Source: Mesostigma viride (Eukaryota; Streptophyta; Mesostigmatophyceae; Mesostigmatales; Mesostigmataceae). Taken from it: a stretch of 64,000 bases of DNA. The stretch is taken from positions 993,404-1,057,403 of the forward strand of contig RPFO01000891.1 in NCBI GenBank assembly GCA_009746045.1. Direction: 5' to 3'. Both the position numbers and the translations under genes were made by a program. Positions within the stretch are counted from its first letter, which is position 1. Each line of letters starts with the position of its first letter. Below the pieces are notes generated by a model. It saw only the letters and a program-made list of their open reading frames with translations, was not told where the DNA came from and did no database searches. This document shows positions 4,860 through 58,929 of this stretch, one piece after another.

Positions 4860-5762
4860 TTCTGGCATGTATGCGTATATAATGACATCAAATGAACTCA
4901 GTTGGGCCTGGAACTTTGCACATGTTATAAACACATCCCATGCAGCATGCCCACAAAGTTTCAGGCTGGTTGGATCACAAAATGGTGACAGATGCTAGCA
5001 TAAATACCCCCAAAATGCAGTTTTTCAGGGTTTTCCAAGGGTTTCATCACACATATGCATATATAATGACACCAAATGAACTCAGTTGGGCGTGGAACTT
5101 TGCATATGTTCTAAACACATCCCATGCAGCATGCCCACAAAGTTTCAGGCTGGTTGGATGACAAATTGGTGACAGATGCTAGCATAAACACCACAAAAAT
5201 GCAGTTTTTCAGGGTTTTCCAAGGGTTTCATCACACATTTGCATATATAATGACATCAAATGAACTCAGTTGGACCTGGGACTTGGCACATGTTCGAAAC
5301 ACATCCCATGCAGCATGCCCACAAAGTTTCAGGCTGGTTGGATCACAAAATGGTGACAGATGCTAGCATAAATACCCCCAAAATGCAGTTTTTCAGGGTT
5401 TTCCAAGGGTTTCATCACACATATGCATATATATAATGACACCAAATGAACTCAGTTGGGCGTGGAACTTTGCATATGTTCTAAACACATCCCATGCAGC
5501 ATGCCCACGAAGTTTCAGGCTGGTTGGATGACAAATTGGTGACAGATGCTAGCATAAACACCACAAAAATGCAGTTTTTCAGGGTTTTCCAAGGGTTTCA
5601 TCACACATGTGCATATATAATGACATCAAATGAACTCGGTTGGACCTGGACCTTGGCACATGTTCGAAACACATCCCATGCAGCCTGCCCACAAAGCTTC
5701 AGGCTGGTTGGATAGCAAATTGGTGACAAATGCTAGCATAAATACCACAGAAAAAGCAGCTT
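4860..5762. repeat. 184-bp satellite with alternating variants
   Basis: Nearly five tandem copies of a unit of about 184 bp. The shared word AATGAACTC starts at 4891, 5075, 5259, 5445 and 5629, giving spacings of 184, 184, 186 and 184. Two variants alternate: one with ACACCAAATG and TGGAACTTTGC, the other with ACATCAAATG and an ACTTGGCACATG or closely related segment. That suggests an older dimer of about 370 bp. The period is not a multiple of three, so the short open frames in each unit are not a repeat protein. Confidence 0.9.
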
Positions 5763-5878
5763 TCTATTGTTCTTCCAAGGATTTCATGGCAATCATTCCA
5801 CCTTGGTGTACAGAAGGTTCCAAACAACACATCATTACATTATGCATCATATTTACAATGCAGGAAGGCATACTTGGG

Positions 5879-5879
5879 G

Positions 5880-5950
<71 letters not shown>
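5879..5950. repeat. (ACGC)n microsatellite
   Basis: About 18 uninterrupted copies of a CACG/ACGC tetramer lie directly before the long pyrimidine tract. The alternating purine-pyrimidine composition is the kind that can adopt Z-DNA. Confidence 0.97.
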
Positions 5951-5954
5951 GTCA

Positions 5955-7792
5955 TACCCTCCCTCCCTCCTCCCCCTCCCTCCTCCTCCCTCCCTCCCTC
6001 CCTCCCTCCCTCCCTCCCTCCCTCCCTCCCTCCCTCCCTCCCTCCCTCCCTCCCTCCCTCCCTCCTCCCTCCCTCCCTCCCTCCCTCTCCCTCCCTCCCT
6101 CCTCCCTCCCTCCCTCCCTCCTCCCTCCCTCCCTCCTCCTCCCTCCCTCCCTCCCTCCTCCCTCCCTCCCTCCCTCCCTCTCCCTCCCTCCCTCCCTCCC
6201 TCCTCCCTCCCTCCCTCCCTCCCTCTCCCTCCTCCTCCCTCCCTCCCTCCCTCCCTCCTCTCCTCCCTCCCTCCCTCCCTCCCTCCCTCCCTCCCTCCCT
6301 CCCTCCCTCCCTCCCTCCCTCCCTCCTCCCTCCCTCCTCCCTCCCTCCCTCCCTCCCTCCTCCCTCCTCCTCCCTCCTCCCTCCCTCCCTCCCTCCCTCC
6401 CTCCCTCCTCCCTCCCTCCCTCCCTCCCTCCCTCCCTCCCTCCCTCCCTCCCTCCCTCCCTCCCTCCCTCCCTCCCTCCCTCCCTCCCTCCCTCCCTCCT
6501 CCCTCCCTCCCTCCCTCCTCCCTCCCCCTCCCTCCCTCCCTCCTCCCTCCCTCCCTCCCTCCCTCCCTCCCTCCCTCCCTCCCTCCCTCCCTCCCTCCCT
6601 CCCTCCCTCCCTCCTCCCTCCCTCCCTCCCTCCCTCCCTCCCTCCCTCCTCCCTCCCTCCCTCCCTCCCTCCCTCCCTCCCTCCCTCCCTCCCTCCCTCT
6701 CCCTCCCCCTCCCTCCCTCCCTCCCTCCCTCCCTCCTCCTCCTCCCTCCCTCCCTCCCTCCCTCCTCCCTCCCTCCTCCCTCCCTCCCTCCCTCCTCCCT
6801 CCCTCCCTCCTCCCTCCCTCCCTCCCTCCCTCCCTCCTCCTCCCTCCCTCCCTCCCTCCTCCCTCCCTCCCTCCCTCCTCCCTCCCTCCCTCCTCCCTCC
6901 TCCTCCCTCCCTCCCTCCTCCTCCCTCCCTCCCTCCCTCCCTCCTCCCTCCCTCCCTCCCTCCCTCCCTCCCTCCCTCCCTCCCTCCCTCCCTCCCTCCC
7001 TCCCTCCTCCCTCCTCCCTCCCTCCTCCCTCCCTCCCTCCCTCCCTCCCTCCCTCCCTCCCTCCCTCCCTCCCTCCCTCCCTCCCTCCCTCCCTCCCTCC
7101 CTCCCTCCCTCCCTCCCTCCCTCCCTCCTCCTCCTCCCTCCCTCCCTCCCTCCCTCCCTCCTCCTCCTCCCTCCCTCCCTCCCTCCCTCCCTCCCTCCCT
7201 CCCTCCCTCCCTCCCTCCCTCCCTCCCTCCCTCCCTCCCTCCCTCCCTCCCTCCTCCCTCCCTCCCTCCCTCCCTCCCTCCCTCCCTCCCTCCCTCCCTC
7301 CCTCCCCCTCCCTCCCTCCCTCCCTCCCTCCCTCCCTCCCTCCCTCCCTCCCTCCCTCCTCCCTCCCTCCCTCCCTCCCTCCCTCCCTCCTCCCTCCCTC
7401 CCTCCCTCCCTCCCTCCCTCCCTCCCTCCCTCCCTCCCTCCTCCTCCCTCCCTCCCTCCTCCCTCCCTCCTCCTCCCTCCCTCCCTCCCTCCCTCCCTCC
7501 CTCCCTCCCTCCTCCCTCCCTCCCTCCCTCCTCCCTCCCTCCCTCCCTCCCTCCCTCCCTCCCTCCCTCCCTCCCTCCCTCCCTCCCTCCCTCCCTCCTC
7601 CCTCCCTCCCTCCCTCCCTCCCTCCCTCCCTCCCTCCCTCCCTCCCTCCCTCCCTCCCTCCCTCCCTCCCTCCTCCCTCCCTCCCTCCCTCCCTCCCTCC
7701 CCTCCCTCCCTCCCTCCCTCCTCCCTCCCTCCCTCCCTCCTCCCTCCCTCCCTCCCTCCTCCCTCCCCCCTCCCTCCCTCCCCCCTCCCTCA
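5955..7792. repeat. 1.8-kb (CCCT)n/(CCT)n pyrimidine tract
   Basis: About 1.84 kb in which the plus strand contains only C and T. It is built of CCCT tetramers interrupted by CCT triplets and a few CCCCT units at irregular spacing. The interruptions shift the frame, so long Pro/Ser/Leu frames on plus and Arg/Gly/Glu frames on minus are artefacts of composition. The minus strand has hundreds of GGGA units, giving very high G-quadruplex and triplex (H-DNA) potential. Confidence 0.98.
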
Positions 7793-12879: not shown

Positions 12880-15793
12880 CTAGTCCTGACCTCTCTTGGG
12901 CGGCAGCGCCCCACCCGCAGCCGCATCTGCCTCTGCGCCAGCCGTCGTCGCCCCTGCCCCCTTGCGGGGAGCGGGCGTCCGTGGCAGCACCGGCTCCACG
13001 CCAAACGCCCTCACGTCGATGACGACACTGTCGGGATGGCAGTAGCACGCGCGCGCGAGCCGCCCCACCTGAGGCCATCTGCGTGGGGGCAAGTGCAGCA
13101 TTCCGGCGCCGCAATGTTGCCCCGAATGTAGCGCACAGGTGAAGATATGTACAGAAAAAATAAATGCAGAGGAATGGAGTTATCATAAGAGGTATGAAAC
13201 TGGCCCTATGTTCGGCAGAGGAATGGAGGTATCATAAGAGGTATGATACTGGCCCTATGTTCGGCAGAGGAATGGAGGTATCATAAGAGGTATGATACTG
13301 GCCCTATGTTCGGCAGAGGATGGAGGTGTCATTAGAGGTATGATACTGGCCCTATGTTCGGCAGAGGAATGGAGGTATCATAAGAGGTATGATACTGGCC
13401 CTATGTTCGGCAGAGGAATGGAGGTATCATAAGAGGTATGATACTGGCCCTATGTTCGGCAGAGGAATGGAGGTATCATAAGAGGTATGATACTGGCCCT
13501 ATGTTCGGCAGAGGATGGAGGTGTCATTAGAGGTATGATACTGGCCCTATGTTCGGCAGAGGAATGGAGGTATCATAAGAGGTATGATACTGGCCCTATG
13601 TTCGGCAGAGGAATGGAGGTATCATAAGAGGTATGATACTGGCCCTATGTTCGGCTGGAAGCCGGGACAGCCATCTTTTGCACCCGCACCACACTTCCAC
13701 AGCGTGCTGTGATGAATAACGGCCCCCCTCTATTTGAGAATTGCCACGGCCAATGTGCACCACCCAACAAGGCTTCACGAGAGCAAAACCCTCCTTCACA
13801 ATGGTCAAATGCCATAGTTCCAGTACATTGCCTAGCATATAGCCCAGTATGTTTCTCCTGCCTCAAGCTTTCAAGTGACCAAGCCCAAGTGCACCGGCAT
13901 AAGTGCGCCAGCGGCAATAAAAGTGCACCAGCATGTGCGCTCACCGGCTGGTGGCGAAGTTGGTGGACTCGGCGCCATTGAACCCGTGGTTGAAACCTGC
14001 GTGGTAGACGCCTGCAGGTATGGGACAATTATCAAAGCCCAGCCCAGCCCAGCCCGGCCCAGCCGAGCAGAGCAGAGCATACCAAAGCATGAAATGGAGC
14101 CGGATTCATGTTGAATCGGCATGTACTTCCTTGGGGTGACATGGAGCCCACTGTTGGAAAAGTTTCGAGCCCTGCTGCCGGCATGGCAGATCCATAGACT
14201 ACCCTTTGCCACTACGTACAGCAAGGCATGGCCGGAGGCTAGCAGCAAACCGGCGTTGATTGTGCCGACGACACGGAAAGGAGATGGCCAGCGAATTAAG
14301 GTCGATCACGTCAAGGAAAGGAACTGAAAGCTGAAATAGCAAACCTAGGCAACATAAGCAAGACCAGGAAGCAAGGCCATGATGATTGCAAACCTATTAC
14401 ATCGGGCGATCTATTAAGGCGACCTACTACATCAGGTGTTCTGAGTAACACGTCACACAAGTAGCTCTCACCATTGCCCCTGCCCCCCCATCACGCGGGT
14501 GTACAGCACTGATGAAGGCCTCCGGGGGAAGGTGGTGAGAGACTGGCAAGAGAAGGGCAAGAGAAGGGCTGAGACATGCATTGGGCCCCACAACGACCCA
14601 CGTCACAGGCAGATCACGCTGGGGGGCCGGGCAGCGATGGGATGGCTGGGAGCTGCGCCTGGAGGTGTGGTGGGAGCGGCCACCAGGCCATGCCAAGGGC
14701 ATACTGGGTGTTGGCCCTGGGTGTCATAATCCTGCCGAGACATCACATATGCTTCCTGCGGAATGGCTCCATCCCAAATGCATGCAAAAGCTACACAACT
14801 AACAGCAATGAAGTCTGTGACGGTGATGGAAAACGTCTACTACTATACAATTATACCGTTTTGGAACTACTATACAACTAGGCAGTTTTAAAACAACTTT
14901 ACGACGGTACAGTTTTAGAACTACTATACTATTATACAGTTTAAAAACAAATATACTACTATACAGTTTTAGAACTACCATACTACTATACTACTATACA
15001 ACTACACAACTATATTACTATACTACTATACAATTATACAATTACAGTTTTAGAAATGTATGCGACCACCGGCCACCCACCCGGGAAGCTGATGACCCCC
15101 CCCCTGCCTCTGCACCAGCGTTCACTCCTATGTACCGTTTATTATACTACCATATCATGATAAAAGCATATGCGTCTACCGGCCTGACACCCACCCGGGA
15201 AGCTGATGACAAAGTCCCCTTGCCTCTGCACGAGCCGGATGACGGGGATGCCGTGCTGCTTCAGCAGGCGAGGGGAGACGAGGGTCTCCTGGGACGCACC
15301 ACGGCCAGCCAGGGAGGCAACCGGGGAGGGTAGATATGTGTGTATGTGTGCGTGTGCGTGTGTGTGCGCGCGTGGGAGGGGGGGGGAGGGGGGGCAGCCA
15401 GGTAACCGCAGGAGGCAGCACAGAGCCGGTAAGACTGGAGATACCAAAGACGAGAATTAAATTCCAGCCATGAGAATTTGACAACTCGCTCTAAGCCGTT
15501 TTCAGGCCAGGCGCGAGGACAAGACCCAGCTGTGTGACAGGTCTGTCCGCTCCAACGCTGTCAAGATGCCCACCCCGTTACTCCTTCAGTGCTCCGGAAA
15601 AGTCCACAATAGAGGCAAATTTGGTGGGTACAGCGGACCACAGCCAGCCAGCATCACTTTTGCAAAACGAAAAGAGGTTTTCATGCAGGAAGTTGCGAAT
15701 GAAGTGCTTCACAAGTATGACAAGTGATTAGTGCATGCACGATCACATACACACACACGAGCACACAAGCACACACACACATACACACACACA

Positions 15794-18800: not shown

Positions 18801-20951
18801 CAGGGACTGGCACGCTGCGGGGCCTGAGCATCTGGGGGGAAAACCAGGGCCCCGTGACTCGCCGCATTCGAGAGCGGTGTGCCTCATCAGTCTACAGGAG
18901 CATGCCAGCCTCGTCTCCTTACTACCAGCCCATCTGGCGATTCATGCCACCACATGACTGGCGGAAAGCCGCTTGGGTGCCCGAGAAATGCCAGTGCCAG
19001 CCCATTGTCCGGTGCGGGAGAGCGGCCAGGGAGAGAAGATGCAGCACCCCCGTCAGAAGGACGTGCCTGTGATCATCCCTCTGCTCCCCATGCACCTGCC
19101 TGAGTGAATCTCCCCCATCTACACATGTCTGCAGGACAGGTTGTGCCTGCACGACGATGCTTAGAGACTACTCTTGAGGCCTGCCCCCCAGGCAGTGACG
19201 AGATTTCATTGGTCTACATGTGACAGCCAGCGGTGTCACGATTGACGTCTGCTGCCCGACCAAGTAGACAATTATTGGGCACACTGAATGGGGCTGTGTC
19301 AGCCCCAATCACCTCCGCCAAAACCCATGTGGCCTGGCGAGCGCACGGGCACATGGCGGCAGGCATCCCTCGGTGCATCAGGTGCTTGTTTTCAAAACCA
19401 GGGCTTTCGTCCAAAACTGGGGCGAACGGGTGAATTCTGAAGACCGTGTTCTAAGCAGCAAGCAACGCCTTTCCTAGCAACACTTAGGTAGGGGAAAATT
19501 TGTCGCTTTCATCTAGGCAGGATAGCTTTCTCTTAAAGGGGTACGTCCCAGAAGGGGTGCGTCCCAGAGAGGGGAGTCAAGGAAAAACTTTGGTCATCCA
19601 AACACTACATGGCTGATGAAAAAGAAACAGGGCATATCTTGCTCTGATGTATATAGTAGCACGTGTCTTGCTCTGATATATATAGGGCGTGTCTTGCTCT
19701 GATATATAGGGCATATCTTGCTCTGATGTATATAGTAGCACGTGTCTTGCTCTGATATATATAGGGCGTGTCTTGCTCTGATATATAGGGCGTGTCTTGC
19801 TCTGATATATAGGGCGTGTCTTGCTCTGATATATATAGGGCGTGTCTTGCTCTGATATATAGGGCGTGTCTTGCTCTGATATATAGGGCGTGTCTTGCTC
19901 TGATATATATAGGGCGTGTCTTGCTCTGATATATATGTATAGGACGTGTCTTGCTCTGATATATATAGGGTGTGTCTTGCTCTGATATATAGGGCGTGTC
20001 TTGCTCTGATATATATAGGACGTGTCTTGCTCTGATATAAAGGAGCTAGGACGATGCTCATACAAGTATGAGTACGCAGGCTTGCATCCCATGCTCGTTC
20101 ATATATGTGTGAAAGACATATATACGGCTTCTTTGCCATGCAGGAAAGATCAAGGGTACAGGAAGAGAGGCAGGTTAACAAGAAAACAGTGGCTGACTCG
20201 TACCTCGACATCCGTGTCGAAGAGCGACCCTTCCATGTCAGCACCATACAGGGGAGCCTTATGCTGCACGGTGACACGGGCAAGGCAGTACCACACAGAT
20301 ACATCATGGTATGGTTGGCTCAGGGCAAATACTCGAGCAACCAGGCTCGAGCAGCACACGTCGTGATTTGAGAGCATCGGTGTATTCTCGGTCAAGTAGG
20401 GTTATTCGATGCCAACTTGCAGGCATCACCGTCAACAGCAGCGACTTTCGAGATGACCCCCTACAGGCGCTTGTCTGGGCGCGTGCGGCGCCCTCAATAG
20501 AAGTCTACCACAAACTCACCACGATGCCTTTCCAATACTCCCGCTCAACCGACTCTTCGTCAAAGCCGGGATCCCGCATCCGCGCAGGAGGAGCCATCTC
20601 GCCTTCGGCCTTTGCCTTAAAGGCGGCAACGCTCATCGGCTTCTGCTCTACAAGGGTAACGTCGTACATTCCGCTCCCGCCACTTCTGGAAGGATGGTGC
20701 ACTAATTGCTGCACAGGATGAGGGATTACGATGTTGCCTAAATCCTGGCTAGCTTCCGACTTGTCCACGGAAAAAGGGGACGAGAGCTCATAGCCATCAC
20801 GGTGTGCTGTCCACCCTGGCGGCGGTCTTATTCTGCAAATTCCAGTAGCCCACGTTTGCTCCTCAATTTTTTCGATAAACCGTTCAAAAGCCCGGGGACC
20901 CACCATATCCTCATGGGTTGCATGATAAAGCGGAGCCTCGCTGACAATCAT
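12880..20951 (-). CDS. JmjN-JmjC (KDM4-type) histone lysine demethylase
   Basis: Eight minus-strand exons: 20520-20951, 20204-20257, 18278-18399, 17212-17274, 15840-15939, 15195-15288, 13945-14011 and 12880-13078. All seven junctions keep phase with GT-AG borders, giving 1131 bases and 376 residues. Residues 5-45 form the JmjN domain; the JmjC domain follows from about 145. Fe(II) ligands are His204, Glu206 and His292; the 2-oxoglutarate site has Asn214 and Lys222. The spacing equals KDM4A residues 188/190/276/198/206. The KDM4-specific zinc site is also present (Cys250, His256, Cys322, Cys324). The family removes methyl groups from H3K9me3/H3K36me3 in the nucleus. No PHD or Tudor reader follows, so this is a catalytic-core protein. 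I chose the ATG at 20951 because [10 protein letters not shown] leads straight into JmjN; an acceptor just inside it (TTGTCAG) would allow an upstream exon. The last exon may instead splice to 11811. Confidence 0.93.
13165..13655. repeat. 49-bp minisatellite with internal hairpin
   Basis: Ten tandem copies of a 49-bp unit. Each unit has an inverted repeat, GTATCAT and ATGATAC flanking AAGAGGT, able to form a small hairpin. Copies 4 and 8 are 48-bp variants (GGATGGAGGTGTCATTAG), so a four-unit block was probably duplicated. The array lies in the last intron of the demethylase core gene, between the exons at 13078 and 13945. Confidence 0.95.
14815..15060. repeat. AT-rich degenerate TACTATACA tandem region
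   Basis: Degenerate copies of TACTACTATACA and CAGTTTTAGAACTAC alternate over about 240 bases in a demethylase intron. No fixed period could be set by eye. Confidence 0.75.
15068..15120 (-). repeat. Echo of demethylase exon 6 end and donor
   Basis: An imperfect copy of the last 30 or so bases of the exon at 15195-15288 plus its donor, sharing CCACCCGGGAAGCTGATGAC on the plus strand. It lies about 120 bases further into the following intron. The copy keeps a GGGTGGGTGG donor-like sequence but has a C-run in place of part of the coding sequence. Confidence 0.85.
15735..15830. repeat. (CA)n microsatellite next to a splice donor
   Basis: A CA/ACAC tract begins within ten bases of the 5' splice site of the demethylase exon 15840-15939. 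On the sense strand the intron therefore starts GTGCG, a T run and then (TG)n. Confidence 0.95.
18190..18240 (-). repeat. Echo of demethylase exon 3 end and donor
   Basis: A partial copy of the end of exon 18278-18399 with its donor. On the plus strand it shares GCAAACGTGC and ACATGCCAAAGTAGAGG in the same order as at 18281-18316, with a six-base loss between the two. The copied donor reads ATG|GTGGCTGG instead of CTG|GTGGGTGG. Confidence 0.88.
19632..20045. repeat. About 25-bp minisatellite, 16 copies
   Basis: Sixteen copies of a 23-31 bp unit containing CTTGCTCTGATATATA and GGGCGTGT. An 80-bp segment including the variants TGTATATAGTAGCACG is duplicated at the start of the array, showing a higher-order step. 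It occupies the 1.8-kb demethylase intron between 20204 and 18399. Confidence 0.95.
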
Positions 20952-21711: not shown

Positions 21712-39174
<17,463 letters not shown>

Positions 39175-39619: not shown

Positions 39620-40320
39620 GCGGTGGGGCTGGAGATTAGTGTACGTCAAAACTGAGGCGATGGTGATTGGGGCTACCAGCCGAGGCCCCGGCTGCCAGAC
39701 GGGACGGAGGTCCCGTTCCGTGATCGCTTCAAACTGCTGAAGAGCATGCATGCTCCCTGACACCGCCGACGATGTGGACATCCGCATCGGCCTTGCCTGG
39801 GCCAAGCTTCATTCGCTCAAAACCTACTGGCGCTCGAAGGGCCAGGGCAAGCACCGCAAAGCATGCTCCTCAAGGTCCTGGCCGGTCCTCACGGTGCTCA
39901 CCTATGGCGCCGAGGCATGGACGCTCACGGACACGCTGGCCACACGGCTGAACGGCATGGTAACCAGGATGCTCCGCCAGGCCCTGAACGGAGGGTTCTC
40001 CACACATACCTAGGCCTTTAGAATCTTTGTACCAGGGTATGCCTCGCATTTCGGACGAGATTAGACAGCGTAGGATAGCATTCGTAGGACATCTTGCTCG
40101 CACCAGTCAGGTAGACACCGACCTCGGTCTGGCCGGCCCCCAGCGGCTTGGCCAGCCAGGGCGGCATATCCTGACCTGGCCGACCTGGCCCCAAGGACGT
40201 ACATTCCTAAAAAGATAGGTAAACATGACATGACCTACCCACAGCTGTTGCTGGCCGACCTATAGTGGTCCCAGCCCGTTTGAACATCGCATTCACTCCC
40301 TCTCTCTTGCTTGGACTGCC
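39620..40320 (+). mobile_element. LINE ORF2 C-terminal fragment, frameshifted
   Basis: Reverse-transcriptase-downstream sequence of the same LINE family as the minus copy at 46.8-48.5 kb. Segments LLPDTADDVDIRIGLAWAK-like and VLTYGAEAWTLTDTLATRL are readable in one frame, and RISDEIRQRRIAFVGHLART in another. Stops and frame changes make it non-functional. It ends at GGACTGCCATGCAG, where it passes into ORF1-like sequence. Confidence 0.8.
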
Positions 40321-46805: not shown

Positions 46806-48522
46806 GGGTAGGTCGTGGCATGTTTGCCTACCTTCTTAGGTATGTCCTTGGGGCCAGGCCAGACCTGTCAGGCCATATGCCGTCCTGGCTGGCCAAGCCG
46901 CTGGGGGCCGGCCAGACCGAGGTCGCGGTGTCTACCTGGCTGGTGCGAGCAAGATGTCCTACGAATGCTATCCTACGCTGTCTAATCTCGTCCGAAATGC
47001 GAGCCGGGCATGCCCTGGTACAAAGATTCTAATGACCTATGCGTGGTAAACCCTACATTCAGGGCCTGACGTAGCATCCTGGTTACCGCGTGCCGTCTAG
47101 CTTGGCCGCCAGCGTGTCCATGAGCGTCCATGCCTCGGCGCCATATAGGTGAGCACCGTGAGGACCAGGCAGGACCTTGACGAGCATGGGCTTGCGGGGC
47201 TCGCTGAGGGCCTTCGAGTGCCAGTAGGTTTTAAAGCGAGCGATGCCTTAGTAGCTAACCCAGGCCACTGAGGCCGATGCGGGTCATCCACATCGTCGGC
47301 GGTGTCGGGGAGCATGCTCCCCAGCAGTTTGAAGCGATCACGAAACGGGACCTCCGTCCCGTCTAGCAGCCGCGGCAGCGGCGGGCGACTGTAAGCCCCA
47401 ATCACCATCGCCTCAGTTTCAACACTAATCTCCAGCCCCACCGCCCTCCCCTCCAAGCCCAGAGTCAGTCCAGCCAGGTCCGGAATGTGCTCGGGGCGCG
47501 CGATCGTGAGGGTGGTGTCATCCGCATAAATCAGGTCGGACAGGCGGTAGCCCGCCGGGTCAACGCCGCCGTGTTCGCGCGATGTCCAAGCCCGGCTGGC
47601 TCGAACCCCGTTAAGAGCAGTAAAGCGTGCACGTGCCCGGCGCATGACATGATCCACGACAATAATGAACAGATCATGGGGACAGGACACAGCCTTGCCA
47701 TACCCCGTGGTGAAGGGGGAATGGTGGGCGGTGTTGCCTTCCGCAGTCCGCACTACTGCCTAGCTGTGAGCCCTCATACAGTCGATGAATGGCAGCAATA
47801 AATGCTGGTGGTACCCGATCCAGAGCTAGGATGGCCCAAAAAGCCTCCCAGAGGACCGTGTGAAAGGCCTTAATTGATATAGTCAACAAAAATGAAGACT
47901 AGCGGCAAACTGTCAGGGCAAAGGCGACGCACCTCCTCCATCAACCGGCGCGCGACAAACACAGCCATGACAGTGTTACGACCACGACGGAAACCCATCT
48001 GAGACTCACCCAGGTGTGGGTCCAGCGCGGCGCGGAGCCGGTGCAGCATCATGCGCATGAAGACCTTCAGCGCGGCGCTCTGGAGGCAGACACCCCGATA
48101 GTTACCGGGGTCAGCAGCAGAGCCCTTCTTGTACAGCATGACTCGGATGGCCGTCTGCCACTCAGCAGGCGGAGGCTCATCAGAGCTAGAGCAGGACACG
48201 GTTGCTGAACGCCAGCACTCAGCAGAAGCTCCCTTACCGCCAGGTCAGGGGTCTTCAGCAGCTCAGCAGAAAGGTGGTCGGCACCGACCGCTGCGTCGTA
48301 CCGCAGGCGAGCAAGGGCGCCGTCCAATTCCTTCAAAGTGAAGGGGTGGACGACGTCGTTGGTGCCAAGGCAGCCCTCCTGCAAGGCGGGGACTTGGTAT
48401 AGTCCGCGGCCGAGGAGGGGGGCGCCGGCGGCGGCGGGGGTCCTGCAACACCGAGACGGACGGCCGTCTCGGGGTGAAGCGGCGGGGGGGGGGGCGCGAG
48501 CCCCACCTGTACCAAGGTTCAA
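46806..48522 (-). pseudogene. LINE reverse transcriptase, frameshifted
   Basis: Minus-strand ORF2 remnant of a non-LTR retrotransposon. In order: FTLKELDGALARLRYDAAVG near 48330, the finger segment KKGSAADPGNYRGVCLQSAA near 48110, QMGFRRGRNT, FVDYIN/KAFHTVLWEAFW (palm), then LSDLIYADDTTLTIARPEHI with the catalytic YADD near 47520, and the downstream FLGSMLPDTADD-type segment. At least three frame changes and stops break it. The endonuclease part is not present upstream. It is interrupted at its 3' side by the terminal-inverted-repeat element. Confidence 0.88.
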
Positions 48523-50025
48523 ACATTGTGGGCCAACCAGCGGTCAAGGCTGACCGGCGCCGTGCCGTCCCCCGTGTGCTCCGGGGGCATATAATATATG
48601 CCGTTTGTAATGCATTCTGATCTACAACCTGCAGGTGGGGGGGTGTAAACCGCCGTGGACCTACACTGGGTGCACAAGGTGCACCTGCATGCACCACTGA
48701 CGTGCCATGATGTATCATATATACCTAAAAGGCCTGGCATGAGGTGGAAGATGATTGTGGCTAGGCAAGAGCTAGGGCATGACATATCAGCAGATCGACG
48801 GTTGTCTCTTTGAGATCGAGTCGAGAGTAATTAACTCGGTGCATGGGCAAAGCCATGGATGATGCAATTCAGCCAAGCTCGGTGCATGGGCAAAGCCATG
48901 GATGATGCAATTTAGCCAAGCTCTGCCTATGCAGAGAGTCACTCTCTGCTGAGAAGCCATGCGCAGGCGATGCCGAGGGCGAGGCCGCAGGAGGAGCCGA
49001 GTAGACTGGTCACGAACACTTGGTTAGTGTCACCGCTGCCTTGTAGGCCGGAGGGCGGAACTGCAGCCGGAGCTGCAGGCGCGTGTTTGCATAGCTCATT
49101 GCAGCGCCATCAAACTGGGTTGCGTCGTGGAGCATTTGCTCGCGTCATAATATTACCTAATAGCTTCGGGAAATATATCAGCGTGTGCGTCTTGTAGAAA
49201 GACGAAGCGATTGTGATAGTCGCGGCAAAATTTGGAGCCCAGACGTAAAAGTTATGAGCTCCGCCGTCAGCCATGGCAATAATGTATATGCACTAATTGC
49301 GACGGGCAACTTTCATGCTCCCGGTGTCAACCTATAGAGCTAAAACACGTCGAAGGAACATGGAGTAGAACATGTGTTCAGAAATGCCCGTGCCATTGAC
49401 TGGCCGACAGCCGCATGCAACTCAGACTGATAGGGACATGTTTTCATTCAGGAAATCAAGCAACAAGACGCACCTCGGCCCACCCAATGAGCCAGGCATC
49501 GCCAGAAAAACAGCATGTGCCCCTCACATATGCACACGACATGGGCAACTGAGGGTACAGACCAGCTCGGGAGAATGGCTGGTTCTCTCATTGAGTTCTG
49601 GTAAGTACTGCATTGTCAGCCACAGGACACACAGCCAGGTCCCACCGAGTACAAATCCAGCAGTGTTTCCGACTGCAAGTCCACCATCTTCCCATCACGC
49701 TCCGTGTCTCCACCACAGGGACATGTGTAAAGTCGATTTCCTGGACAGCCCCCCAATAGGTTCCTCACTGGTTTGTCACTGGTTCCCCACTGGGCATTGC
49801 CCCGGTTTGTTGGTTTGTTCCAGTAAGCCCAGGGGCAACCCCAATACATCCTCACTGGTGTATCCCTCGTCGCGAGCTCTACATTAACTCGCACCGAGTC
49901 CCTCACTTCTCCCTCACCAGCTATTCCTCCTTGGTCCATAGCTCCCTAGTTCCTCCCTGGCTCCTAGTCCCTCCCTAGTTGTTCACAGGCTCCTTGGACA
50001 CAGATCCTCCGCAGGTCCAGCCCCC
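48523..50025. other. Intergenic between LINE and repeat-protein gene
   Basis: No confident gene. A 44-bp direct duplication lies at 48835-48925 (CTCGGTGCATGGGCAAAGCC twice). Direct CCCTAGTTCCTCC-type words cluster at 49940-50000 near the 3' end of the minus-strand gene. Confidence 0.5.
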
Positions 50026-53000
50026 CTAGTTCCGCGTCTCCTCCGCGACGCTCGAGCGGATGCGCCGCTTCCTCAAATCCCCCTCCAGCCGCGCCATGAA
50101 GTCGGCTGTCAGCTCCTTGCTCGCAGCCGACGTGCGCGGCGCGCTGCGCGGCCTCACTCGCACCAACAAATTCGCGGCGATCTCCGCCACCTTGCGCTCC
50201 CTCGCCGCGGCCGCATTCGCCTGCTTGGCCAGGAACTGCTGGTTGCGGATTGCACGGTACACAAACAGCAGCTTGCGGTCACCTTTACGGCGCAGCAGCG
50301 TCTCCAGGTCGCGAGGGAGCACCCTGGAGAGGAGGCCCAGGGTCTCTTCCAGCCCTGGACCGGAGAGGAGCACGTGGCTGCTGTCCGCCCGCTGCTGCTT
50401 CTCGTCCAGCGCGGGCAAGTCCCCGTCCTCCTCCTCGTCCTCCTCGTCATAATCCACGACCTGCCCGGCAGCACCACCGCCACCCCTGGCCCCCTCCGCT
50501 CCTCCCCCTCGGCGCTCCCGCCACTCGCCGACGATGCTGCTCCGTTGGCGTCAGCGCCGCCCCCTCGACCGGTGCTCGCACTCGCGCGCTGTGCCCACTG
50601 CTTTGCCTGCGCGGATATCGACGCGGTGATCGCGTCCGCCTTGGCCTGCTGCGTGGTGCCCCCCCCACCGCTGGTATTTCCCCCCCCGGCGGCAGCCCTT
50701 GCTCGTGCCATGTCGAGTGCCGCGAGCAGCAACGCGTCGAGCCGCTCGTTCTGCAGCCGCACGCGCGCACCCTCGCGGTGGGCCTCCAGTGCGCGCTCGA
50801 TCGCCCGCCGCTCCTCCGCCGCCTCCGACTGCATGCGCGCCACCTCCTGCCGCTGCGCCTCCACCTGCTTCTGCCGACGCAACAACTGGGCACGCTTCGC
50901 GTCCGCGGCCTCCCTCTCCCCCTCCTGGCCCCCTCACCTGTGCCCCCGCCCCCGCCTCCCTCGTCCTCCCCTGCCTCTGCCCTCGCCTGCAGCGCAGCGT
51001 CCTCATCGGCTTGCTCCCGCGCCAACGCCAGAAGCTTGGCGTCGGCGTCGTCCAGCTCTGCCAGCGCCGCCCGCGCCTGTGCCTCTGCCTCCTTGGCCGC
51101 GTGCAGCCGCTCCTGCAGCTCCGGCTCCCCCTTGACAACCGCCGATGTGCGTGCTTTCAACTCCCTGTCCGCCCCTGGCGCAGGCCACCCGAGCTGGGAC
51201 TCAAAATGCCGCAACGCCTCCGCGCGCTCCTCGCGCGCACGCTCCCTGGCCACAGGGACACCCGAGGGGCCCTCCAGGGTACGGGTGAGCGCCTCCTTGC
51301 TGGCCTCTCTCGCGCGCAGGCTCGTCTCAAAGCGGCGCAGGAACTCGTTTGTCTTGAGGCAGAGGATGAGGAACTCCTTGCGCTTGAACTTGAGCAGCGT
51401 CGACCGCTGCTCCGACGCGAGGCCAAAGCTCGCGCGCTGGCTGGCCTCGATCCGGTCCAGCCGCGCGGCCTGCTCGGGCGACAGCTTCAGTGCATCCCTC
51501 TTCCCGACCTCGATTCGCCCCAGCTCCTCTCGCTGCTCCGCCGTGAGCCCCAGCGCCTCCACTTTGTTGATGTCCGCCGCGACCAGCGCCGCCTTCTGCT
51601 TTCCCGACAGCCCCAGCTTGTCCCACTTGGTGCCCTCGGCGCGCAGGAGCGCGTCACGCTGCGACGGGGACAAGTTCAGCTTGTCCCACTTGCCCGCCTC
51701 CGCGCGCGCAAGCCGTTCCCTCTGGTCACTCGTGAGCTTGACCACGTCCCATTTCGTCGCGTCCACGCGGCCCAGCTTCTCCCTCTGCTCCCGCGAGAGT
51801 GCTAGATCGTGCCACTTGGCGGCCTCGAGACCGCCCAGCTTCTCCCGCTGGCCCGGCGTGAGCTCCAGCGCGTCTGCCGCGCCCGCCTCCGCCAGGATTA
51901 ACATCTCCTTGACATCTGGGGCCAGCTCGAGCGCTTTCCACTGCCCCGCCTGGATGCGCTTGAGCTTGTCCTCCTGCTCCATGCTGAGCTCCAGCCCGCC
52001 CCATTTCGTCTCCTCAAAGCGCGCCAGCTTGGCGCGCTGGCCAGGCGTCAAGTCCAGGTGGTCCTGCTTGCTCGCCTGGATCGCGTGGAGCGCATTCCTC
52101 TGTTCTTGCGTCAGCTGCAAGTGCTCACCATGGGCCGCCTCCACCCCCGCCAGCGCATCCACTTGCTCTCTCGTCAGCCCCAGCTTGACCCGCTTGGACC
52201 ACTCAAACTCCACCAGCGCCTCCTGCTGCTCGGGCGTCAGGTTCAGCGCCTCCCATTTCCCAGCGTCGATGCGCCCCAGTCGCTCTTTCTGGTCCGCACT
52301 CAGCCCGAGTTGGCCCCACTTCTTGGCTTCGAACGCCGCAAACTTGGCCTTTTGGTCGGCGTTCAGCCCCAGGTCGTCCCACTTGCCCGCCTCGAATCGC
52401 TCGATCTTGGCTTTTTGGAGCAGGCTCAGGTCGGGGATCTTGTCCAGCTTTGTCCCCCCCAGCTTGCGCTGCTTCTCCTTCTGCTCCCCGCTCAGCTTCA
52501 ACTCCTCGAGCAAGCTGGCCTCGGCTCTGGCCAGCTTGGCCTTCTGGTCGCCGCTCAACCCGAGCGCGTCCGCCTTGCCGGCTTCCATCGTGGCGAGTTT
52601 CTGCTTTTGCTCCGGGGTCAAGTTGAGCGACGTCGCCTTGCTGGAGTCCACCCGAGCCAGCGTGTCGCGCTGCTGCGCCGAGAGGCCCAATGCATCCGCC
52701 TTCCCGGCCTCGATTGCCACCAGCTTGTCCCGCTGGCTCTGTGACAAGTCACAGGCGTCCCATTTAGCTGCCTCGAGCCACGCCAGCTGCTGCTGCTGCT
52801 CCTGCGATAACCCGAGTCGCTTCCACTTGCCGGCCTCCAGGTCCTCCAACGCCTCCAACTGCTCGGGCATCAAGTCCAGGGTGTCCCATTTCCCGGCCTC
52901 CAGTCGAGCCAGCGCCCCTTTCTGATCCTCCGACAACTCCAGGCAAGCGTACAGGCTCTGCCGCATGCCGGCCTCAAGCGCGGCCCTCTTGTCCCGCTGC

Positions 53001-56000
53001 GCGTGCGTCAGGTTCAAAGCCACCCAGTGGCCCGCCTCTGCGTCGCACAGCTGCTCCCGCTGCGCCACCGTCAGGCCCAGCTTGTCCCACTTCCCGGCCT
53101 CAAACTTGGCCAGCCGCTCCTTCTGCTCCGGCTTGAGCGCCAGGGCATCCCGTTTACCGCCCTCGATCTCCGCCAACGTCTCCCGCTGCTCCGGACCCAG
53201 ATCCAGCGCCCACCACTTCCCCAACTCGACCGCCCCAAGCTTCTCCTTCTGCTCTGCTGTCAAGCCCAGCCCGGCCGCTGTGCCCGCTTCCATCCCCCGC
53301 AACGTCTCCTGCTGCTCGGGAGTCAGCCCGAGTCGGCCCCACTTGCTCGCGTCCACCCAGCCCAGCTCCTCCCTCTGCGGGCCAGTCAGCCCGACCCCCG
53401 ACCACTTGGCCGCCTCGAGCCGGCCCAGAATCTCTCGCTGCTCCCGCGAGAGCTCCACCTTTTCCCATTTCGTCGCCTCCACCCGCCGCTGCACGTCCAC
53501 CTGCTCCCGCGTGAGCGTCAGCGACTCCCAGCGGGCCGACTCGACCCGCCGCAGCTTCCGCTTCTGTTCCGGCGTCAGGTTCAGCGCGTCCGCGCGCCCA
53601 GCATCAATCGCGTCCAGCTTTGCCTTCTGCTCCGGCAACAGGCCCAGCTGGCGCCACTTGGTGGCCTCAAACCACGCCAGCGCGTCGCGCTGCTCCTGGC
53701 TCAGCTGCAGCGTGTCGACCATCGACGACTCCATGCGCGCCCACGTGTCGGTCTGTGCGGGCGTCAACTTGACCTGCTCCCACACCTCTGCGTCCGCCCG
53801 CGCCAGCGCATCTCGCTGCTCCGGGGTCAACCCAACCTCATCCCATTTGGACACCTCGAGCCAGGCCAGCCTCTCCCTCTGTGCCGCGTTCAGGCCCAAT
53901 GCCTTGCGCTTGCCGACCTCCATCCTCGCGAGCCTCTCCTTCTGCTGGCTGCTCAGCTTGACCGCGTCAACCACGCCCACCTCCAGCATGGCCAGCTGTC
54001 GCCGCTGCTCCAGGGATAGACCCAGGGTCTCCACCACCGCTGCAGGAACCACCCCCACGATACCCTCCGATGCCCCCACCTCCTGCCCCCCTGGCTCCCC
54101 CCCCCCAGCCCCAAGCTTCTCCCTCTGCTCGGGCGATAGCTCCAACTGCTGCCACTTGGCGGCCTCTGCACGCGCCAGCCGTTCCTGCTGCCGCGGCGTC
54201 AGCCCCACCGCCTTCCACCGGCCCGCGTCCACTTTCCCCAGCCTCTCCCGCTGCTTAACCGTGAGCCCCAGCTCATCCCACTTGACCACCTCCTGCCACG
54301 CCAACACCTCCCTCTGCTCCTGTGTTAATGCCAACGCCGCCACCTTTCCGGCCTCCGCCCCCTCGTATGCCTCCTCCTGCGTCGTGCTTAGGCCCAGCAC
54401 GTAGCGGCGGCCGCCCTGGGACCCTGCCAGACGCTCCCGCTGCTCCCTCGTCAGGTCAAGCGCGGCCGCCCACTTGGTCGCCTCCAGCACCACGAGCCGC
54501 GACCGCTGCTCGTGCGAGAGGCCCAGCGCCTCCCTCTTGCCCCCCTCAATCTTGGCCAGCTTCTCCTTCTGATCGGGGGACAGGTTCAGCGCCGCCCACT
54601 TGACCGCCTCCGCCGTGTCTAGCGCCCGCCGCTGCTCTGGGGACAGCGTCAGCCGGCTCCACTTCTTGGCCTCGGCACGCCGGAGGGCTGACTGCTGCTC
54701 GCCGCTCAGCTCCAGCGGCTCCCACCGCGCTGCCTCCACGCGCGCTAGCTTGTCTTTCTGCTCCGCGTTCAAGCCCAGCCGCTCCCGCAGGTCGTTGCAG
54801 AGGAACTCAACCAGCTGCTCAACGGACATGGCCTTGAGGTTGGGTTGGTGAATGGGACCACCAGGAACGCCACCAGCAGCGTTGTTGTTGTTGCTGTCGG
54901 ACGACACGGCACGGCTGGCGACGTCGCGCAGGAACCGCTCGTCCTTGGCACGCGTCGCGATCTCGTTCTCGACCCCCCCCATCTCGACGCGCGCGTAGTG
55001 CCGGCTCTTCTCCTTGGCGTTGGCCTGGCGCATCTTGAGGTCGTTGTGCACGCGCTCGGTGAACGTCATCGCCTCGCCCGCGCTCTGGGCCATGCGCAGC
55101 GACGCGCGGTTGAGCCGCGGCTTGAAAGTGAGCTGGCTCAGCTCCGCCTGCGCCAGCGAGGGCACCTTCTCGTGCATAGCCATCGTGCTCGGTGGGCGCC
55201 AGTGCGGGCGCTGATCCAACGGCTCGGGGGGGGCCCCCGGCACCGCCCCCGACTGCCCCTGCTCCTCCTTCAACAAAGCCGTGAGCTCCCGCTGGACACG
55301 GGCCACGAGGGCCACCGCAAACTTGTGGTTGTCCTGCGCTTTCTCCAGCTCAGCACGCGCGGTGCCCTCCCGCTTCGTGGCACGGATCAGCTCCTTCTCG
55401 AGCCGGGCTTTGCGGGCAGCGAGAACCGCCTCCCGGTTGGCCGAGATGATCTCTTCTGCGGAACGTTTCTGCTGGTCACCGGCGCCATCGCCGCCGCCGC
55501 TCGTCTGGTGCTCCTGGACTTTGCTCACAATGTCCTGGCGGTGGCCCAGCGAGCTGATGCCCAGTTCCGACTTGAGCGTGGCCAGGGTGAGCCGCTGGAG
55601 AAGCTTGCCGTCCACGCGGTGGTGGATGAACGCCTGGCGGTACTGGGGGAAGTCGATGAGGACCATCCACGTGGCGACCTCGCGCGAGCTCCACGCGTCC
55701 ATTGGCAGCTCTTGAACTTTGCGCAGGGATTGGTCGTGGATGGAGACGCTGAAGGGGCGGGGCTGCTTGCCTTGCTTCTTCCTCGAGGGCGTCTCGTTAG
55801 GCCCGGGCGTGCGCACGTTCTCTCCGGAGCCGTCCGAGCGCTCGGCCTCCCACTCGCGCTGCGACTGTTTTGCCGCCCGCAGCGTGGCTTCGAGGGCCGC
55901 CTTGCTCCCGCGTGCAGGGCCGCTGTCGTCGTAATCATCGTCGACATCCTCGTCTGACTCTTCCACTGCCCGCGCGGGGGCTGGCTTAGATGCCGCACCG

Positions 56001-56368
56001 CCGCCCTTGCTCCCACGGGCTGGCGGGGCGGGCTGCGACCGTTGTGTCCTGCCAACGCTGGGTTCGTCGGGCTCCGAGTCATCCTCGATATCCTCGTCTA
56101 AAAATTCCTCCGCCCCGTCCTCCGAGCCCTGATCTGATACCGCCGCTGCACCCTTGTTCCCACCAGCTGATGATGCAAACCGCGATCGACCCGTCCTTCC
56201 ACCATTTTGCTCGGCAACCCCGGAACCGTTTTTCCTCTCACTTCTCTCCTTGGCTGCCTGAAGGGCGGCCTGCACTGCCGCAGAGCGCTCAAACGACTGC
56301 TCAAAACTGTCGTCCGCTAGGTCTTCATCTATGCCATCGTCTGATATGGACTCGCCATCGGTACTCAT
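50026..56368 (-). CDS. Giant SAM-domain protein with about 53 tandem 21-aa repeats
   Basis: I do not recognise a named orthologue. From the first ATG (56368, MSTDGES; the open frame extends 26 codons further without an ATG): residues 1-205 are acidic and Ser/Gly-rich, 222-287 form a SAM domain (AWSSREVATWMVLIDFPQYR), 303-370 a charged coiled coil, and about 410-490 a conserved-looking LTFKPRLNRASLRMAQSAGE segment. About 531-1668 (54778-51364) is an array of about 53 repeats with pattern L-x-L-[ST]-x-E-Q-[RK]-x-x-L-x-x-x-E-[AG]-x-K-W. After it come further coiled coils. One frame runs from the start to about 50930. The reading then shifts twice, both in G-rich runs (about 50920 and 50490), to reach MDYDEEDEEEDGD and a stop at 50026, about 2110 residues in all. 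SAM domains mediate protein or RNA binding and self-assembly; a scaffold role is inference. No introns are needed in the main part, unlike its neighbours. Confidence 0.85.
51364..54778 (-). repeat. 63-bp coding tandem array
   Basis: About 53 diverged copies of a 63-bp unit inside the giant gene, encoding the 21-residue repeat. Spacing is almost always exactly 21 residues. Exceptions are two 22-residue units, one enlarged unit of about 26 residues, and one with a Gly/Glu/Val-rich insertion of about 20 residues near 54060-54130. Copies differ strongly at DNA level, so the array is old and kept by selection rather than a fresh expansion. Confidence 0.93.
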
Positions 56369-58929
56369 TCTTCTCGATTTGTAGTCTGTCGGAAATACGA
56401 ATCGCTGGTTACCCCCCCGATTGGACGAATCCACCCATACTACCAAACAAACCGCGTCATGGGAATGCGATCAGAATATCGGTAAGTGCCTGTTGATGCC
56501 GAAGCAACATTAATTACAGCTTTCTTTCCATGACAGCAATGAATTACGTCTTCAGTGCTCGGGCAGTGCACATTATTTTGCCAAATTTATCTGCACGCAG
56601 GCATTTTAACTCGGTAATCCTGACGTTCACGCTGCAGCTCAACGATCTGATGCTCAACGAATAAACATGATGTTCAGGATGTCTACTATAAGGCGCAGTG
56701 CGGACCCCTATTTGCCGCTTACAGAATCGGACGTACTTGATTTAATACATCGATTACATTTTATGAACCTCAAGTTGACAGGATGTGATGAAGACCCTCT
56801 TCTTATTGACAGATACTTATTATAGTTGAACTCTAGACCTTTTTCTGGGTCAGACTTCAGACTTGTCTGCGCGCGCTGCATTTTATGTTTTTTGAATCAT
56901 GCTGAGGATCATTTGGGGAGGAATTTGCGATGTGCCCGATAGAGATGCCCGCGCGCTACACCTATACCTCCCGTGCCTAGTACTCTAGGCAGTGAATTTA
57001 GCAGTCACGAGACCCTAACGGTACAATATGGTATCTTCCCTCTTTCGCCGATGACGCCTTGTAAATCAGGCGCCGTTATCGTGAAGCTACTGTAGGCATC
57101 TTATTTTGAACATGGAAGCTAGGCCTTCTATCAAGTACCTACCTCAACAAAACCTAACTTGTAAGGTAAGGTTTTGTTATACGCGGATCGCGCGGGACCT
57201 CGGTACTTGCTGGAAGGGCGTATGATGATATCTACTCTGGTAGATATATGCGCTATTTTCGTTTTTCAGACGGTACGCTTACCAAGCCGGCAATCCTCAT
57301 ATAGGATTCGACCATCCTGGTGCGTTGCAGGCATGCACGCAAGACACGCGTTGACATTCGATGTTGACTTGGGAAATGATTGTGACGCAATAGGTGATTC
57401 AGCTTCTTGCTACCAGTGTCGCAAGTTGCCGAAGGCTGCAGCTACGCGTGTCACGACTGCTTTGGCCGCGACCATATTGCATGCGAGGGCATGCAACACG
57501 AATATTGACGCTTGGGCGGGGCCGAGGGCTTGAAGGGGCTGTAATCCTCAATCGTGGGACCGTGATTAGTTAGAAACACTAGCTAGCCGGCCTAGCTATG
57601 GTAAGATTCATTACCTGCGAACCCAGCTTGTGCAAGGGTGCCTCTTGAGTATATAGGTTACTGTGGCCTTCCCTTGGCGACTAGCGCTTCAAACTTTTTG
57701 GCAGTGGCGCGCGGTCCCCCCTCCACGGCCGGCGGACGGCATCAACTGACCTGCATCCGCCAGGCGTGGGCACGGCACTCCACTGCCTGGAGAGATTCTG
57801 GACATGCCACCGCCGTACCTGAGTGAGCGACGCAAATTAACGGCACATGTTGTGCAAGGCCCTAGTGTCCAATCATGCGCATCCGCTACAAAAGGAGGAA
57901 TGCTTAGCTAACAAAAGGAGGCTTAACAAGGGCCATTGCGTGGGCCGCCATGCCCGGGCGCTGACTAACTTGCTCGCCACGCAGTTCCTAGGCTCAAGTG
58001 GACCATGAACAGGTGCTGAACGCGCAGCTTGTTGTCCAGCGATCACGACATGTGGGCATCTCCCACAAGAGTCCTCTGTGGCCTGCCCTCTTGAGGCAGT
58101 GAGACAAGCTACGGCACCCTGAGCCCTCCTTGTTGTGTATAGGGGTTGAAGGCTCATCTAGCTGTCGGTGCCCATTTGGTGCATGCACCACTTCATTTAA
58201 CTACAGCAAAAATGATATGTCACAAGAAGACAGGCTGTCTAGGTGCACATGCGAACCGATGTATATACTAAATTCAATCACGGACGATTGTTTTTCTAAT
58301 GAGATTAGCATAGTACTCCGTGGCATGCCTTTGCGCATGACACGCAAGTACTTACTTACTTATCACGAACGTTAAAGCCAGCCATGCATGATTTTTGAAG
58401 TGCGTATACCACGGCCGCACCACACATTGATTTAAACCTCCATTTAATTCCTGATATAATCCTGAACGGTTGGACAAACAACGATAAGATACCATGGCAT
58501 GGGCTTGAGCTATATGTACCATGGTCCGGATTCTCCTGCAGATTTCTGGCCGCCCTGCACTAGCTTGTTGTCTCATTGATATTGATCAGCAGGACTGCCA
58601 TGCTCATGAACCTTTATTCTTATTAGAAAAAGCAATGGAGAACTAAAAGGCGATAGCCTGCTGCTTAAGATCAGCACACGCAATGCAGCGTCTCATGCTA
58701 GTCCGGCTGTGCCGGACACTTCCCACAAGTGTGTCATGATGTTCAGAGTTCATCGTGGGTTTGTTGCTAAACGACTGCGTGCGCAACATTGCCTGCATCG
58801 CTCATAGGGCGACCAGCGAGCACATGTAATGCACAGCGCAGCTGCCTACAGGCTCACATTCTCCAAACTCATTACCAAACTTAACAGTGCCTAAATAAAA
58901 AAATCGTCCCAGAATCAGCCCAGGGGGGA
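56369..58929. other. Intergenic, promoter side of the giant gene
   Basis: About 2.5 kb with no confident gene; the part from 56480 to 57200 is AT-richer. A plus frame at 57174-57533 lacks recognisable motifs. Dispersed repeats are at 58060-58170 (shared with 41205-41345) and 58300-58360 (shared with 10225-10275: TAGTACTC-GTGGCATG, then GCGCATG and ACGCAAGTACT). Confidence 0.5.

Follow-up and report, generated by a model that had tools for sequence, protein, structure and literature searches.

Tandem 21-residue units in a SAM-domain protein of Mesostigma viride and their possible packing

We analysed a 64,000-nucleotide stretch of the Mesostigma viride genome (contig RPFO01000891.1, positions 993,404 to 1,057,403; hereafter the window), in which a minus-strand gene (50029–56368) encodes a protein with a SAM domain and a long array of tandem 21-residue units. 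Fifty-two units (51428–54778, minus strand; consensus LGL[ST]PEQREKLARxEAGKWDA, delineated by position-specific scoring) are followed by a degenerate fifty-third (51365–51427, minus strand), in agreement with the roughly 53 units that a first-pass annotation had placed at 51364–54778. The array is old, real and selected at the level of the protein. Our preferred explanation, to which we give about equal chances of being right or wrong, is that every unit contributes one helix to a solenoid-like scaffold with the SAM domain as its head.

An old array selected at the protein level

Position-specific scoring of the open frame located 52 units without overlap between 54778 and 51428, with a minimum score of 23.2 under a model trained on the same 52 units that it scores; in the shuffled whole protein (n = 50) the top unit score was 6.6. 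A six-frame scan of the window likewise gave 52 hits above 8 in the array frame and none in any other frame or place. The near-perfect 21-residue period described in the first-pass annotation was borne out, as 47 of the 51 steps between units measured exactly 21 residues (the remaining steps being 22, 40, 25 and 22) and identity at a lag of 21 was 0.364, whereas none of 200 shuffles exceeded 0.103. The consensus was nearly equal in the first, middle and last thirds of the array, and units with Trp were not clustered (23 switches versus 25.6 ± 3.5). A Gly/Val-rich break of 19 residues (54026–54082, minus strand) follows a degenerate unit within the array. Units masked by a frameshift in the 40-residue interval were considered and rejected, the other two frames having no readable unit there.

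Residue identity between units was 37–40% at every separation from 1 to 16, so that recent local duplication has left next to no signal. Tandem Repeats Finder (score ≥ 50, 48000–58000) returned four rows, none of them within the array, which agrees with the earlier view that this is not a young minisatellite. At four-fold codon boxes shared between units, third-base identity was 0.466 against a saturation expectation of 0.423 (4943 comparisons, all unit pairs), and it lay at 0.45–0.50 across the five separations shown. Identity at codon positions 1 and 2 was 0.561 and 0.573, respectively, versus 0.309 and 0.264 expected from composition, and at codon position 3 it was 0.513 versus 0.476. The invariant Leu3 is encoded by five codons. 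Synonymous sites are therefore near-saturated whilst amino acids have been kept, indicating that the protein was under selection; the selection that had been proposed for these diverged units is thus supported by a unit-to-unit comparison.

A probable capped helix per unit and how the helices may pack

Leu3 is present in all 52 units, followed by Gln7 (51), Leu or Val at position 1 (50), a hydrophobic residue or Ala at position 14 (49), Asp or Glu at position 15 (47), Leu11 (45) and Ser or Thr at position 4 (44, all 44 together with Gln7). Lys or Arg occurs at positions 8 and 18 (40 units each), Gly, Asn, Asp or Lys at position 2 (38, including 21 with Gly), Asp or Glu at position 6 (36), Trp at position 19 (29) and Pro at position 5 (19). 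Trp19 and Leu3 would be the hydrophobic partners that go with these motifs. PMC4515027 describes both the capping box and the Schellman motif with its C′ Gly, and on sequence grounds Ser/Thr4 with Gln7 reads as a capping box at the helix start, with Gly2 at the Schellman C′ site. Conservation had its largest moment at 95 degrees per residue (six variants, permutation P = 0.0004–0.013), which points to an alpha-helix with one conserved face. This periodicity and the counts of capping residues favour the single helix capped by L-[ST]-x-E-Q that the first-pass annotation had envisaged, at the level of sequence.

We propose that residues 4–7 ([ST]-x-E-Q) would cap the helix start in each unit, that the helix would extend to about residue 1 of the following unit, where a left-handed residue at position 2 would terminate it, and that Leu3 would pack back onto position 19. 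Given a break of only 2–3 residues between helices and a spacing that hardly ever departs from 21, adjacent helices would most likely pack together, giving a stiff, solenoid-like rod. Odd and even units did not differ (modulus 2, P ~ 0.80; modulus 3, P = 0.08) and are therefore unlike the A and B helices of two-helix solenoids. Backbones were sampled over the link torsions with ideal helices: 1620 of 1852 chains were clash-free in a first run, and 1057 of 35,597 were kept in a second run (clash-free, with a mean of more than four neighbours). Compact solenoid packing is possible in these models, the 60 most compact chains being near two-fold-screw solenoids with a rotation of 166–179 degrees and a rise of 4.8–6.7 Å per unit (5th–95th percentile). 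By rough geometry from this rise, a rod of 52 units would be 25–35 nm long, with the SAM domain serving as its tether or as a means of oligomerisation. Most probably the array acts as a stiff scaffold or spacer.

However, several results weigh against such a rod. In the first sampling run the typical clash-free chain was open, with a median crossing angle of 87 degrees, and the 60 solenoid-like models had been picked for their compactness. Burial in these 60 models followed neither conservation (Spearman 0.18, P = 0.44) nor hydrophobicity (Spearman 0.08, P = 0.72), which leaves the packing unsupported by this test, and inter-unit covariation at lags 1–4 was not clearly above the null. The hydrophobicity moment peaked at 132 degrees (P = 0.9995 for 90–110 degrees), i.e. 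the unit is not amphipathic at 100 degrees; hydrophobicity lacks a helical period because the conserved face is mixed, comprising Leu, Gln, Lys and Glu. Opposite-charge pairs at i,i+3/4 showed no clear enrichment (112 versus 105.6 ± 8.3), and like-charge pairs were somewhat few (76 versus 89.9 ± 7.8). A ligand-binding face would be another way to account for the near-invariant Gln7 and for the frequency of Lys18 and Glu15.

The strongest competing explanation is that some 53 independent helices act as stickers in a row, each on one subunit of a regular partner (filament, lattice or condensate) that sets the spacing. We consider it unlikely, though a serious contender: it would make use of near-invariant Gln7 and frequent Lys18–Trp19 on a conserved, partly polar face, and it is consistent with covariation and burial giving no signal of unit-unit contact. 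There is a precedent in CsLinker (PF24429), a Chlorella Rubisco linker that, like the array, consists of repeated short helices in a green alga; according to PMC11570498 these helices bind Rubisco, are ~10 residues long and have no stable tertiary structure. The present genome has green-type light-harvesting genes, and CSLinker matched 17 of 41 three-unit segments at E ≤ 1 (best E = 0.0011), these segments being the ones aligned for profile searches of PDB and Pfam (41 of 42; 54083–54271, which ends in a degenerate unit, was left out). On the other side, the spacing is almost invariant, a disordered spacer would not fit between the helices, and CSLinker was found in 4 of 10 pieces with 11.6–16.1 bits against a cut-off of 27 and was not found on the whole array at E ≤ 1. 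The N-terminus is acidic, unlike a chloroplast transit peptide. A pyrenoid linker was rejected on this acidic N-terminus and on the CSLinker scores of the four pieces, which were below the cut-off.

The solenoid-like scaffold also has to be set against an alpha-helical coiled coil that spans 1100 residues and contains stutters, which we judge improbable. Such a coiled coil would account for a period of 21 (3 × 7) in a charged, helix-prone sequence, but the heptad contrast of the array (0.56) was not above that of 60 shuffles (0.59 ± 0.03), and a continuous coiled coil was rejected on this test. The best register over the unit columns was 0.28, and Pro at position 5 (37% of units) and Gly at position 2 (40%) stand against it as well.

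Comparison with described repeats and families

No TPR, HEAT, ARM or PPR match was among the Pfam rows at E ≤ 1 (array) or E ≤ 0.1 (thirds of the array), and the earlier statement that TPR, HEAT, ankyrin, pentapeptide and spectrin repeats do not match was correct for the Pfam rows of the array. Like the array, alpha-solenoids of the TPR, PPR, HEAT and ARM types are long head-to-tail successions of short helices in which hydrophobic and turn residues are conserved. PMC11514114 gives HEAT repeats as ~40 residues with two helices, ARM repeats as 42 residues with three helices and PPR repeats as 31–36 residues, whereas each unit here would be a single helix in 21 residues, with odd and even units alike.

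The profile search of PDB gave 33 rows at E ≤ 10, including TAL effector repeats (E = 0.00029–0.0084), designed and other proteins (E > 0.05) and Spy (E = 0.38–1.5); a search with the array sequence itself found nothing at E ≤ 1. The TAL effector repeat is a 34-residue two-helix unit with the same kind of helix-start sequence as the array, whose period is 21. An array that reads nucleic acid in the manner of TAL effectors or PPR proteins is very improbable in our view: this common helix start and the E values favour it, but those values are sums of many weak stretches, the shared parts are ~6 to 18 residues and none passes alone. Charge was approximately balanced (180 Lys + Arg versus 186 Asp + Glu in 1117 residues) and, by eye, no pair of columns stood out as a variable reading pair, both of which argue against this reading.

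The first-pass annotation had called the repeat unrecognised; on paper there is a match to known families, as two of them pass their Pfam cut-offs on the whole array. LTXXQ (PF07813) reached 32 bits there, the cut-off being 24.3, and passed in two of three thirds (37.9 and 31.5; the other 20.1). It was listed in 26 of 41 three-unit segments at E ≤ 1. No LTXXQ stretch passed alone in the whole array (E ≤ 1) or in the three thirds (E ≤ 0.1); in 63-residue pieces at most two stretches passed at E ≤ 1, the best-scoring ones covering 20–46 of 100 positions. SAM_SMF (PF25317) scored 36 bits against a cut-off of 27 on the whole array and passed in one of three thirds (33.6), but the full 65-position domain was not recovered, the best stretch (positions 26–62, i.e. 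37 of 65) occurring once. The SMF/DprA SAM domain is thus only partly matched, whereas the array repeats an equal unit many times over; a helix-turn-helix might produce a partial match of this kind. Because the LTXXQ and SAM_SMF matches are partial and located on the helix-start motif, we discounted them; in our judgement they are echoes of a short helix-turn-helix-start motif and the array is assigned to neither family. This also illustrates that tandem repeats can lift a short motif over whole-protein family cut-offs, as for PF07813 and PF25317 over 51434–54778 here.

Spy/CpxP is a bacterial periplasmic protein, and a eukaryotic expansion of its LTXXQ chaperone motif is in our estimate highly improbable. 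The passing PF07813 scores on the whole array and two of its thirds and the Spy chains in the PDB profile search speak for it, and the L-[ST]-x-x-Q helix-start motif is common to both. However, the overlap between the 100-position profile and the array is mostly this motif, with no stretch passing alone in the array or its thirds. A PF07813 search of the whole genome, with E values scaled to the genome, gave no matches at E ≤ 0.001, the array included; the same search was positive in 4 of 14 control genomes.

A multi-copy peptide precursor cleaved at basic sites is hardly credible and was rejected: the best match in the PDB profile search was indeed a mating factor alpha-1 chain (7aft_H, E = 1.3e−5, two stretches), but dibasic pairs occur in only 16 of 52 units at scattered positions, and an acidic N-terminus is followed by a SAM domain.

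Other libraries added little. In NCBIfam the array and the N-terminal part had a single row each (E = 0.42 and 0.076, respectively). In PHROGs the array had three rows, all weak and partial (best E = 0.0039), and the N-terminal part had no row. Among open-licence papers (titles and the starts of abstracts) we found no 21-residue or single-helix tandem repeats and no SAM proteins with repeats; one search led to the fungal HET-s fold, a beta-solenoid. By sequence, then, the array appears to lack a convincing match to a described repeat in the libraries and open-licence literature searched.

If the units are single equivalent helices, they would form a natural alpha-solenoid of minimal design, its length set simply by copy number. 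We tentatively suggest, with well less than even confidence, a distinct natural alpha-solenoid class, in which more than 50 chemically equivalent units of one helix and 21 residues are arranged on a near two-fold screw and serve as a ruler or strut in a ciliated alga. If true, this would be informative on how cells measure and brace structures, and usable as a module in protein design. The exact caps, unit-unit packing, rod shape, scaffold role and any link to the cilium are features that we infer.

The gene, its relatives and its surroundings

The minus strand holds a single open frame of 2007 codons (50450–56470). The presumed start codon, an ATG at 56368, and the gene's 3′ end were taken from reading frames rather than transcripts: the main frame spans the array to ~50930, and two other frames then continue to a stop near 50029. 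From N- to C-terminus, the protein comprises an acidic N-terminus, the SAM domain, a charged stretch, a block that matches no family, the array and a charged C-terminal stretch.

The SAM domain (55505–55699, minus strand), which the first-pass annotation had placed in the same protein, was readily detected (Pfam SAM_2, E = 4.6e−15; SAM_1, E = 1e−13), with PF07647/PF00536 scoring 56 bits against a cut-off of 20.5 over profile positions 2–66 of 66. Its best PDB match, and closest solved relative, was SARM1 (E = 6.9e−8). The charged stretch on its C-terminal side (55259–55462, minus strand) is a possible coiled coil with a weak signal, the heptad contrast of an overlapping stretch (55301–55507) being 0.67 versus 0.50 ± 0.11 in shuffles. 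No Pfam family was found in 54779–55516. This region includes a block (54995–55138, minus strand) in which a Phe-Lys-Pro-x-x-Asn-x-x-Ser motif precedes a basic stretch; the block may resemble motifs of protist cytoskeletal proteins.

C-terminal to the array, a charged stretch (50960–51118, minus strand) is likewise a possible, weakly indicated coiled coil, with a heptad contrast of 0.62 versus 0.47 ± 0.09 shuffled (measured over 50867–51139, which extends beyond the frame change). The C-terminal stretch 50951–51427 gave three PDB rows (E = 0.011–0.012), none with a passing stretch. Coding-like sequence, read by eye, continues on the minus strand in two other frames (50029–50933, comprising 50157–50933 and then 50029–50550). 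For 50029–50550 there was no Pfam or PDB match, and 50157–50933 gave one weak Pfam row (E = 0.059) under the cut-off. Both frame changes (50029–50960) apparently lie in G-rich tracts by eye, and they may be introns, real shifts or a lesion, or indel errors of the assembly.

The genome itself (439,911,974 bases in 2243 contigs, the window being C1802:993404-1057403) was searched for relatives. The array was found once, its only match being itself (seven best candidates scored), and neither a paralogue nor a second haplotype of the array was found in this genome. The N-terminal part had two matches (50 best candidates scored), itself and another SAM domain with 33% identity, around which 3.2 kb contained no unit scoring above 5. 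Amongst IMG/VR and GTDB contigs, peptide patterns of the array hit 3 and 22 stretches, respectively, and tblastn confirmed none. A degenerate DNA pattern over parts of two units hit 4 viral and 23 genome stretches, with one match each, and these 27 loci (203,630 bases) held no unit scoring above 8. With 336 residues of the array as query, tblastn (E ≤ 0.01) gave no match in phages or plasmids. These collections are prokaryotic or viral, so absence from them says little about algae.

Thirty-three chlorophyll a/b-binding matches and a radial spoke protein 3 were present in the genome. One of the former (L035) resembles green-lineage LHCII in PDB; among the best 60 of its 182 rows, the top two were the long chains LHCI-2 (620 residues) and LHCI-11 (1048 residues) of 9vfj, and 6kac, from Chlamydomonas, came third as the best match of ordinary length. 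The green-type light-harvesting proteins and radial spoke protein 3 point to a photosynthetic eukaryote that has antennae of green type and genes for cilia; on this evidence a green alga is the most likely source, with another group bearing a green-type plastid, such as euglenids, less likely. Four equal-scoring chlorophyll a/b-binding matches (L036–L039) lie at 2.34–2.88 Mb of contig C1457, with a fifth on C1459.

Elsewhere in the window, a DEAD-box helicase fragment occurs at 2838–3164 on the minus strand (Pfam DEAD, E = 4.7e−6, 26.9 bits against 26), presumably part of a Dicer-like gene. Two fragments, at 47100–47759 (minus strand) and 39741–40010 (plus strand), have a stretch in common and by eye, with a YADD-like motif, the look of retroelement remains; neither had a Pfam family at E ≤ 0.1. 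Tandem arrays of DNA are numerous (4870–7791, 13166–13655, 19629–20043, 28253–28568 and 29931–30365), the first of them containing a 4-base unit repeated 477 times (5957–7791) and an adjoining 184-base repeat (4870–5787).

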